From the IMG/VR virus record IMGVR_UViG_3300049043_000298, positions 1 to 24,067 of that record: DNA of 24,067 nucleotides. The stretch is one strand, 5' to 3'. The position numbers were made by a program, and so were the translations under genes. Source of the stretch: a virus. This document shows, piece after piece, positions 1,984 to 2,948 of the stretch. Numbering within the stretch: position 1 is the first letter of the stretch; each line of letters begins with the position of its first letter. The notes beneath the pieces are model-generated. The model saw only the letters and a program-made list of their open reading frames with translations, was not told where the DNA came from and ran no database searches.

Positions 1984-2334
1984 TTAAAGGCGAGAGAGAC
2001 AAATGCGAGCCGTGCCTTGCCCAGGGGAAGCAATGCGAGAGAAGCTTCCGTAGGAAAGATCAAGGATGCGCCCGCCAGCGTATGGGCCGCGATCATTGAT
2101 TGTCACGACAACAGTCTTGCCATTGTCACGATTCTTTACTTGCACCTTGGTTCCAAATGGAAGCCATGGATGAGCAGCAGTGAGAGCGTAGGCGTTGAAG
2201 CGAGCGCCGCTGGCGGTGGTTTGGCCGTGATAGATATCACCCACGCCATAGTGCGAAGCTTGTCCGCACGACAAAGCAGCCGCTTGAGCAGGGGAGCTGC
2301 CCAGCAGCAGGAGAGGAATTAAGAAACGTAGCAT
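1984..2334 (-). CDS. RlpA-like double-psi beta-barrel wall protein
   Basis: A 116-residue protein from ATG 2334. Residues 1-20 (MLRFLIPLLLLGSSPAQAAA) are a clear Sec signal peptide. The rest is the RlpA-like double-psi barrel: ASHYG near the start of the mature part, TTASGARFNAYALTAAHPWL, then PFGTKVQVKNRDNGKTVVV and INDRGPYAGGRILDLS, with the Asp of the DLS motif matching the family's catalytic acid. RlpA proteins bind or cleave denuded peptidoglycan glycans. In a phage it could assist lysis or wall crossing. The usual C-terminal SPOR domain is absent. The gene has no Shine-Dalgarno site of its own and follows a leader ORF whose stop is three bases upstream, suggesting coupled translation. 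Confidence 0.85.
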   Translation of the reverse strand: MLRFLIPLLLLGSSPAQAAALSCGQASHYGVGDIYHGQTTASGARFNAYALTAAHPWLPFGTKVQVKNRDNGKTVVVTINDRGPYAGGRILDLSYGSFSRIASPGQGTARICLSRL

Positions 2335-2337
2335 CAA

Positions 2338-2391: not shown

Positions 2392-2484
2392 ATTGTCTCC
2401 TATTTTTCCAGGGCGATGCAAGTATTGTTAGGTTTTCTTAAGAAATGGAAGGGGCCGTTGGCGAGCCAGAGGCGTGTCGAGTGC

Positions 2485-2490
2485 TACGAT
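2485..2490 (+). promoter_or_regulatory. Possible extended -10 box for a plus-strand transcript
   Basis: TGCTACGAT (2482-2490) reads as an extended -10 (TGnTACGAT). No convincing -35 lies 17 bp upstream, which extended -10 promoters can tolerate. Transcription would start near 2497 and run into the terminator at 2688-2713. Confidence 0.3.
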
Positions 2491-2496
2491 ATCTCA

Positions 2497-2713
2497 GTGG
2501 TTGGTCCTAGAGGCTTAATTGCTTCTCCTGTTCCGCAAGGGGCGGGCCGTAAGGGTGGACGGGTCTGACAATGTGAGCTGATTTCCAGGCGTGCGTCTGA
2601 AGTTCAGCTAGGGGCATACATGGTCCCCGCGAGGCACGTTGTCCCACCGTTAGGTGGAAAGGGCCCATCGGAAGCCACAAAGGGAGGGGAGGGCGAATGC
2701 CCTCCTTTCTTTT
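2497..2713 (+). ncRNA. Candidate structured non-coding RNA ending in an intrinsic terminator
   Basis: No convincing protein is encoded here on either strand. The plus strand shows successive stems: AGCTGA (2576-2581) with TCAGCT (2604-2609), enclosing CAGGC (2586-2590) with GTCTG (2595-2599); GGGG (2611-2614) with CCCC (2625-2628); CCACC (2644-2648) with GGTGG (2653-2657) around a GTTA loop; and GGAGGGC (2688-2694) with GCCCTCC (2699-2705) followed by TTTCTTTT. The last is a typical terminator. Together they suggest a roughly 215-nt RNA or leader. I compared it mentally with tmRNA, RNase P, 6S, cobalamin, hammerhead and HDV-type patterns and found no match. The 5' end is uncertain. Confidence 0.4.
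2688..2713 (+). terminator. Intrinsic terminator, plus strand
   Basis: Seven-base-pair GC-rich stem GGAGGGC/GCCCTCC with a GAAT loop, followed by TTTCTTTT. It has no upstream plus-strand gene to end, which is the main support for a non-coding transcript here. Confidence 0.8.
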
Positions 2714-2801: not shown

Positions 2802-2948
2802 ATGAAGCTGTCGCCCGAACAGGAGCGCGAACGTTTAGCAAGGTGGTTGAGGAACTCCGAGACATACGATGACTGGGAATACGGGACTGAGCCGATCCCC
2901 GGCGATCACGAATGGGCAAAAGAAAAGGCCCCTGAAGGGGCCAATTAG
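2802..2948 (+). CDS. Small hypothetical protein
   Basis: A 48-residue product from ATG 2802 (MKLSPEQERERLARWLRNSE, then YDDWEYGTEPIPGDHEW). It is charged, with an N-terminal helix and a Trp/Tyr-rich acidic middle. The frame is open further upstream but runs through hairpins, so this Met is the sensible start. There is no Shine-Dalgarno site, and the start is next to a 7-bp hairpin that could hide it. Its last codons (EKAPEGAN) are encoded by a hairpin that acts as a terminator on the other strand. No family recognised; the composition looks like a real protein. Confidence 0.45.
   Translation: MKLSPEQERERLARWLRNSETYDDWEYGTEPIPGDHEWAKEKAPEGAN
2918..2942 (-). terminator. Intrinsic terminator, minus strand
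   Basis: GGCCCC (2927-2932) pairs with GGGGCC (2937-2942) and on the minus strand is followed by TTTTCTTTT. It ends the minus-strand gene at 2959-3117 and overlaps the 3' end of the plus-strand gene at 2802. Confidence 0.85.

Follow-up and report, generated by a model that had tools for sequence, protein, structure and literature searches.

Organization of the locus

We analyzed a 24-kb virus record (IMGVR_UViG_3300049043_000298), and the window refers hereafter to the whole stretch of 24,067 nt; positions are window coordinates and the plus strand is that of the element under study. About 460 bases separate an rlpA-like gene from the gene of a 48-aa protein, and the plus strand of this gap presents, in this order, an extended -10 box, a structured core and an intrinsic terminator. 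The features of the locus are as follows.

1984-2337, minus strand: gene of an RlpA-like double-psi beta-barrel protein (Pfam DPBB_1, E = 2e-23), divergent from the RNA
2482-2490, plus strand: extended -10 element TG-C-TACGAT (TGCTACGAT), recognized by sequence
2496-2713, plus strand: RNA gene of about 218 nt with a predicted 5' end at 2496, delimited by promoter spacing, covariance model and terminator
2496-2679, plus strand: structured core, 184 bases
2497-2502, plus strand: 5' strand of P1, GUGGUU, pairs with 2673-2678
2504-2507, plus strand: 5' strand of P2, GUCC, pairs with GGAC at 2557-2560 and encloses three hairpins
2509-2526, plus strand: hairpin P2a, from the alignments of 47 and 66 sequences and RNAalifold
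2527-2546, plus strand: hairpin P2b, 100% paired, with changes on both sides
2547-2554, plus strand: P2c, CC-GURA-GG, a GNRA-type tetraloop on a 2-bp stem
2561-2566, plus strand: 5' strand of P3, GGGUCU, pairs with GGGCCC at 2661-2666
2567-2575, plus strand: 5' strand of P4, pairs with 2635-2643
2576-2609, plus strand: hairpin P4a, longer than in most relatives
2611-2628, plus strand: hairpin P4b, with a conserved CAU(GG) in its loop
2644-2657, plus strand: hairpin P5, the most variable part
2667-2672, plus strand: junction J31, AUCGGA, invariant and unpaired
2673-2678, plus strand: 3' strand of P1, AGCCAC, pairs with 2497-2502
2680-2713, plus strand: intrinsic terminator in the minimum-energy fold, with a GAAU loop and a U-rich 3' arm
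2802-2948, plus strand: gene of a 48-aa conserved cyanophage protein (MKLSPEQERERLARWLRNSETYDDWEYGTEPIPGDHEWAK...), identified by tblastn, with a start of its own 3' of the terminator

A sequence-only reading of this DNA had proposed a structured RNA here, and the extended -10 box, paired elements and terminator that it described were all found where it had placed them. Its 215-base noncoding structured stretch stands, but its extent is best taken as 218 nt (2496-2713).

Distribution of the element

A distant blastn search returned a match to the element's 5' half from Synechococcus phage S-CBS4, where the copy occupies an unannotated gap adjoining the rlpA gene, on the same strand. In the phage record (HQ698895.1), the base of P1 falls at about 64,727 on the minus strand. 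We also searched IMG/VR independently of the RNA, using the RlpA protein, which yielded 57 loci. Among the 40 closest rlpA loci (at least 69% identity), the element lies just upstream and on the opposite strand in all but one, which is cut off at this point by the contig end; carriers of a more distant rlpA (58% identity or less) are without it. Further members were added using DNA patterns derived from the core. In total, the covariance model matched about 93 IMG/VR contigs, among them the S-CBS4 record. Many of these contigs are near-duplicates, and the weight of the analysis rests on 66 distinct sequences rather than on contigs. The window scores 132 bits (E = 9e-33; 2496-2679; model R1) but is one of the model's own sequences, and it is therefore the held-out members that provide an independent test of the fold.

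The element is present as one copy per genome (12 large contigs and S-CBS4), and no copy was found in six other cyanophage records, all T4-like (five cyanomyovirus records and one of S-RIM50). S-CBS4 is the only isolate with the RNA in the phage collection that we searched: two other variants of the element retrieved nothing else from this collection, and the matches of the neighboring proteins likewise singled out S-CBS4. One weak member (L177; 39 bits) presents neither P2 nor the promoter and is perhaps degenerate, and one pattern match (L173; 12 bits) was dismissed as chance. Cellular homologues were sought by one exact-pattern scan of genome contigs, which divergent members would escape; it returned 33 stretches, none in cyanobacteria, and the covariance model found none of the cellular matches credible (best: 18 bits, E = 0.004, in a high-GC actinobacterium). 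As far as seen, the RNA is restricted to S-CBS4-like cyanophages, a siphovirus lineage.

Conservation of base pairing

Using a MAFFT alignment of 47 relatives built from sequence only and fitted to no structure, we observed that 94.7% of cells pair and that 35 of the 53 pairs have changed on both sides. When partners were slid by 1-3 columns as a control, pairing was 41-50%. We counted double substitutions on a FastTree phylogeny by Fitch parsimony, in place of R-scape, and compared them to a null in which the substitutions of each branch were kept but moved to random columns. The 47 sequences present 61 compensatory double changes, where the null gives 2.2 on average (maximum 5; 60 simulations). 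An alignment of 66 sequences, which was fitted to the structure through the model, presents 167 such events (null mean 5.1, maximum 11), with 46/53 pairs changed on both sides. The covariation search that the sequence-only reading had proposed thus gave a very strong signal.

Eleven divergent members outside the first model were also tested, and all six P1 pairs and all four P2 pairs can form in them. The letters of P1 differ from those of the window in most of these members (CAAGUC/GACUUG, CUGGUU/AGCCAG, UGAGGU/ACCUCA, UAAGUU/AGCUUA). A phylogeny-aware G-test on the 47 sequences, whose few clades leave it low power, identified two column pairs at E < 0.05, each belonging to the structure. Six were significant once two further pairs had been listed: four in the structure and two representing adjacent-register pairs of P1. 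When the divergent members were added, 11 of 11 significant pairs fell in the structure. No pair was significant outside the structure and P1's own neighbors in these tests, and we thus found no evidence of a pseudoknot.

The plus strand contains 418 G-U cells and only 25 A-C cells. This asymmetry indicates that the plus strand is the RNA, since the complementary strand would be riddled with mismatches. It also bears on the idea of a DNA-level element (an origin, a recombination site or regulatory DNA) whose inverted repeats merely resemble RNA. An intergenic position beside a divergent gene would suit such an element, but nested helices with branched junctions covary, G-U is common and A-C rare, and a conserved promoter and terminator frame the covarying part exactly. 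We consider this explanation extremely improbable.

The plus strand of the element folds better than expected (z = -4.67; none of 200 shuffles as good), and the minus strand gives z = -1.29. However, the cores of many relatives reach only about 0 to -2, so that folding energy alone is weak evidence; the reality of the element is settled by the comparative evidence. We consider covariation decisive here, and on the comparative record 2496-2713 is almost certainly a real structured RNA kept by base pairing. The earlier proposal of a candidate structured RNA is thereby borne out by strong covariation, a conserved plus-strand fold, a conserved promoter position and the terminator.

Predicted structure

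The overall fold can be written P1[P2(P2a,P2b,P2c) P3(P4(P4a,P4b) P5)]: P1, P2 and P3 meet in a three-way junction whose joining strand is AUCGGA, and the P2 domain is four-way. Manual parsing and RNAalifold concur on P1, on P2 with its three hairpins and on P4 with its two hairpins, while P3 and P5 were located by hand (P3 from complementarity). Both P1 and P2 are 100% paired, the former in the alignments of 47 and 66 sequences with changes on both sides, the latter with covarying variants. All six pairs of P3 change on both sides, with up to six pair types: relatives carry GCUUGA/UCAAGC, GCCACU/AGUGGC or UUUCU/AGAAA, among others, where the window has GGGUCU/GGGCCC. P4 is 98.5-98.9% paired, and both sides have changed in 7/9 pairs with 47 sequences and in 8/9 with 66. 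P4b is 99.6-100% paired and the CAU of its loop is at least 97% conserved. Certainty is lowest for P5, owing to its shifting register: only 70-78% of its cells are paired in the two larger alignments, where it is out of register. The fold and the gene boundaries are well supported overall.

Invariant residues cluster in AUCGGA, in the G between P1 and P2, in P2c with its flanks and in the CAU of the P4b loop. P2c is invariant or nearly so in the 66 distinct sequences. Its motif, as GCCGURAGG, served together with AUCGGA as the search pattern for divergent members, and the invariance of these two motifs in those divergent members is partly a matter of ascertainment, although it also holds in members found through rlpA alone. 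The loop of P2a is not conserved among divergent members.

We noted that many members carry a Shine-Dalgarno-like AAGGAG in the 5' strand of P4b and an AUG in its loop (2611-2634 in the window), and that an unpaired GAGG or AGGAG lies just 3' of P4b in many members. The arrangement AAGGAG-N7-AUG was considered as a start site and rejected: a stop follows three codons on in some members (ATG GTC TCC TGA in L063), lengths vary out of frame and no frame is conserved.

Promoter and terminator

The motif TGnTAnnnT lies upstream of the RNA in 61 of 68 relatives, and its spacing is fixed at 5 nt from the RNA start in 46 of those. A single match to this motif within the window is not unusual by chance, and the evidence for a promoter is therefore its conserved position. 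No -35 element is evident upstream of the RNA. The extended -10 box at the proper distance, as the sequence-only reading had it, is thus present at 2482-2490 and keeps its position among relatives.

The arms GGAGGGC/GCCCTCC described in that reading lie at 2688-2694/2699-2705 and are directly followed by TTTCTTTT at 2706-2713, which confirms the terminator and its trailing run (2688-2713); in the minimum-energy fold (2680-2713) the stem reaches 15 bp. A terminator is found 0-11 nt past P1 in all 68 relatives, in the form of 47 different stems. This arrangement is most naturally read as a predicted transcript that begins with P1 and finishes with the terminator. As judged from these conserved signals, 2496-2713 is very likely transcribed as a stand-alone RNA.

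A further pair of hairpins (..GCCGCTGTTGCACAGCGGGGAGCTTGTGCAACAAGCTC..) lies 3' of the terminator at 2714-2757 on the plus strand of the window. It is also found in a few relatives (L013, the L014 group and L172, with a near copy in L111), is cleanly missing elsewhere and resembles a small mobile or inserted element.

Independence from the flanking genes

We examined whether the RNA follows its neighbors. The small gene downstream shares the strand of the RNA in 50 of 68 contexts and is inverted in 9; it was not found in the remaining contexts, some of which are cut by the contig end. The rlpA gene was not found in 5 of 68 contexts (L165, L176, L188, L093 and L177), among which L093 and L177 have an upstream flank of just 22 and 209 nt. 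The upstream gene of L165 and L188 encodes a product that resembles by eye a SWIM-type zinc finger, and a SWIM-like gene is also upstream in 13 contexts that have rlpA. S-CBS4 has a conserved counterpart of the 48-aa protein, and about 90 cyanophage records conserve part of it; the match adjoins nrdB in the two records inspected (S-RIM50 and SynMITS9220M01).

These data bear on the possibility that the RNA is a cis leader, namely a transcription-terminating riboswitch or attenuator for the 48-aa gene. An aptamer-like three-way junction with a terminator directly after it has the appearance of such a leader, and a short conserved gene does follow on the same strand in the 50 contexts above. However, the RNA and its terminator persist where this gene is on the opposite strand or was not found, so that a gene under its control, immediately 3' and in the same orientation, is not a constant of the family. 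No alternative pairing of the aptamer or P1 with the terminator was found either: P1/J31 pairs with its own terminator at -3.30 kcal/mol and with swapped terminators at -3.24, and the terminator stems differ freely (47 kinds). The two P1 strands, by comparison, are specific to each other (-6.79 kcal/mol native vs. -2.34 swapped). Since the downstream gene flips or is not found and P1/J31 is not terminator-specific, we consider a leader, riboswitch or attenuator quite improbable. Of the roles proposed by the sequence-only reading, the leader is thus disfavored, the RNA having its own terminator in 68/68 relatives, while a regulatory RNA or decoy stays. The independence of the RNA from its flanking genes is well supported, and a cis role that needs no neighboring gene may be envisaged.

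Comparison with known families and proteins

Neither the window nor eight relatives gave a match to any Rfam 15 family at gathering score, and permissive E-values revealed no family; the Rfam search suggested by the sequence-only reading therefore left the RNA without a family. The closest candidate in the window was PrrB/RsmZ (RF00166), a family of CsrA-binding sRNAs, with 21.9 bits (E = 0.0046) against a gathering score of 44 bits. This match was not reproduced in the relatives L060 and L182 and its alignment disregards the covarying helices P1-P3, and it was rejected. A chance-level match to skipping-rope RNA (15.9 bits) was on the other strand and was not reproduced. ARAGORN found no tRNA or tmRNA gene in the window.

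We found no Pfam match for the frames tested across the region, and no reading frame across the RNA is kept open among 68 relatives, in agreement with the earlier statement that the stretch encodes no protein. The core measures 154 to 196 nt in relatives, and its lengths cover all three residues modulo 3. Frames that could hide a small protein (98 aa on the minus strand, 50 and 61 aa on the plus strand) are not conserved and were rejected.

The window presents covarying P1, P2, P3 and P4 together with AUCGGA and GCCGURAGG, which define the family. We therefore propose that the S-CBS4-type RNA represents a new RNA family, as judged from sequence comparison. Among the papers searched, we found none describing it, although an earlier listing may have gone unnoticed.

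Other phages carry structured noncoding RNAs of unknown function, namely GOLLD and ROOL (PMC12286853) and skipping-rope RNA (Rfam RF02924). The first two are large and ornate, and occur in bacteria as well as in phages. Like these three, the RNA described here is noncoding, elaborate and kept by base pairing, but it is about 218 nt long, belongs to S-CBS4-like cyanophages and has no Rfam match at gathering score. In T4-like cyanomyoviruses, the RNAs CfrI antisense, PhotoRC-II, wcaG, manA, glnA and abiF have been described, several of which are cis-regulators with Rfam models (PMC2864571, PMC9964418, PMC10665884). They share with the S-CBS4-type RNA their occurrence in phages of marine or estuarine Synechococcus, whereas the latter stands alone and belongs to a siphovirus lineage. 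The S-CREM1 and S-CREM2 papers sought noncoding RNAs by Rfam search. Because the published cyanophage annotations that we consulted rely on Rfam for such RNAs, they are blind to uncatalogued families, which explains why this RNA was missed earlier.

Proposed role

Our results suggest that the element is an independent phage gene for a structured noncoding RNA of about 218 nt that acts in trans and probably binds protein; we assign this reading a probability of about 60%. We infer its transcription, trans action and protein binding as follows. Host RNA polymerase would start at the extended -10 element, placing the 5' end at the base of P1, and synthesis would end 0-11 nt beyond the closing of P1, at the dedicated terminator. 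The transcript would then fold around its compact three-way junction, with the four-way P2 domain, the GNRA-capped P2c and the AUCGGA joining strand. A compact tertiary fold is likely because a 2-bp stem under a GNRA loop would probably need a tertiary contact to be stable. In the infected cyanobacterium, the RNA would act in trans and, rather than pairing with messages, would most likely bind a protein or complex of host or phage as a decoy, inhibitor or scaffold.

The strictly conserved unpaired residues are short and lie in junctions and loops, which suggests tertiary structure or protein contact more than a long seed. Protein binding is favored over pairing with messages because no conserved unpaired run exceeds 6 nt, and we give this mode of action, taken by itself, roughly even odds. 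The competing explanation is a base-pairing sRNA in which a short seed, either AUCGGA or the CAUGG loop of P4b, would pair with host or phage messages. A stand-alone promoter and terminator are typical of sRNAs, and both AUCGGA and CAU(GG) are conserved and predicted to be unpaired. Yet these runs of at most 6 nt sit in a junction or a closed loop, the P2a loop is variable among divergent members and the fold is far more elaborate than that of typical seed sRNAs; this explanation seems rather unlikely.

A packaging or virion RNA, similar to the pRNA of phi29, which belongs to the packaging motor, or another structural phage component would also be single-copy, lineage-wide and multi-junction with a GNRA loop, and the size and style of the element suit an assembling RNA. 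In the linear 69.4-kb record of S-CBS4, however, the RNA (64.5-64.7 kb) is not adjacent to the packaging genes, terL and the portal gene being found at 5.4-9.2 kb, and a search of the window with an E limit as high as 10 gave no pRNA family. Such a role appears very improbable.

Among known protein-binding RNAs, 6S RNA is a decoy of RNA polymerase, a long hairpin whose central bubble mimics an open promoter; it binds the polymerase holoenzyme and serves as template for pRNA synthesis. The trans-acting RNA proposed here resembles it as a stand-alone structured RNA (about 180-220 nt) and possibly also as a decoy, but it presents three- and four-way junctions and no match to the Rfam 6S model.

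The covariance model and alignment would allow others to annotate the RNA immediately. Since S-CBS4 has been isolated and its host is named (Synechococcus CB0101), the RNA is directly testable. The contig name of another member, L176 (IMGVR_UViG_2786546945_000009), is in the style of isolate genomes; if it represents a prophage of a cultured organism, it would provide a second testable host. The RNA is conserved in every sufficiently complete member of the lineage that we examined, which implies a function important to infection. Tentatively, it could be a core, lineage-wide cyanophage RNA directed, as a ribonucleoprotein or decoy, against a central machine of the host, which may be RNA polymerase, the ribosome, RNA decay or a defense complex, and it would then represent a functional class not yet described.
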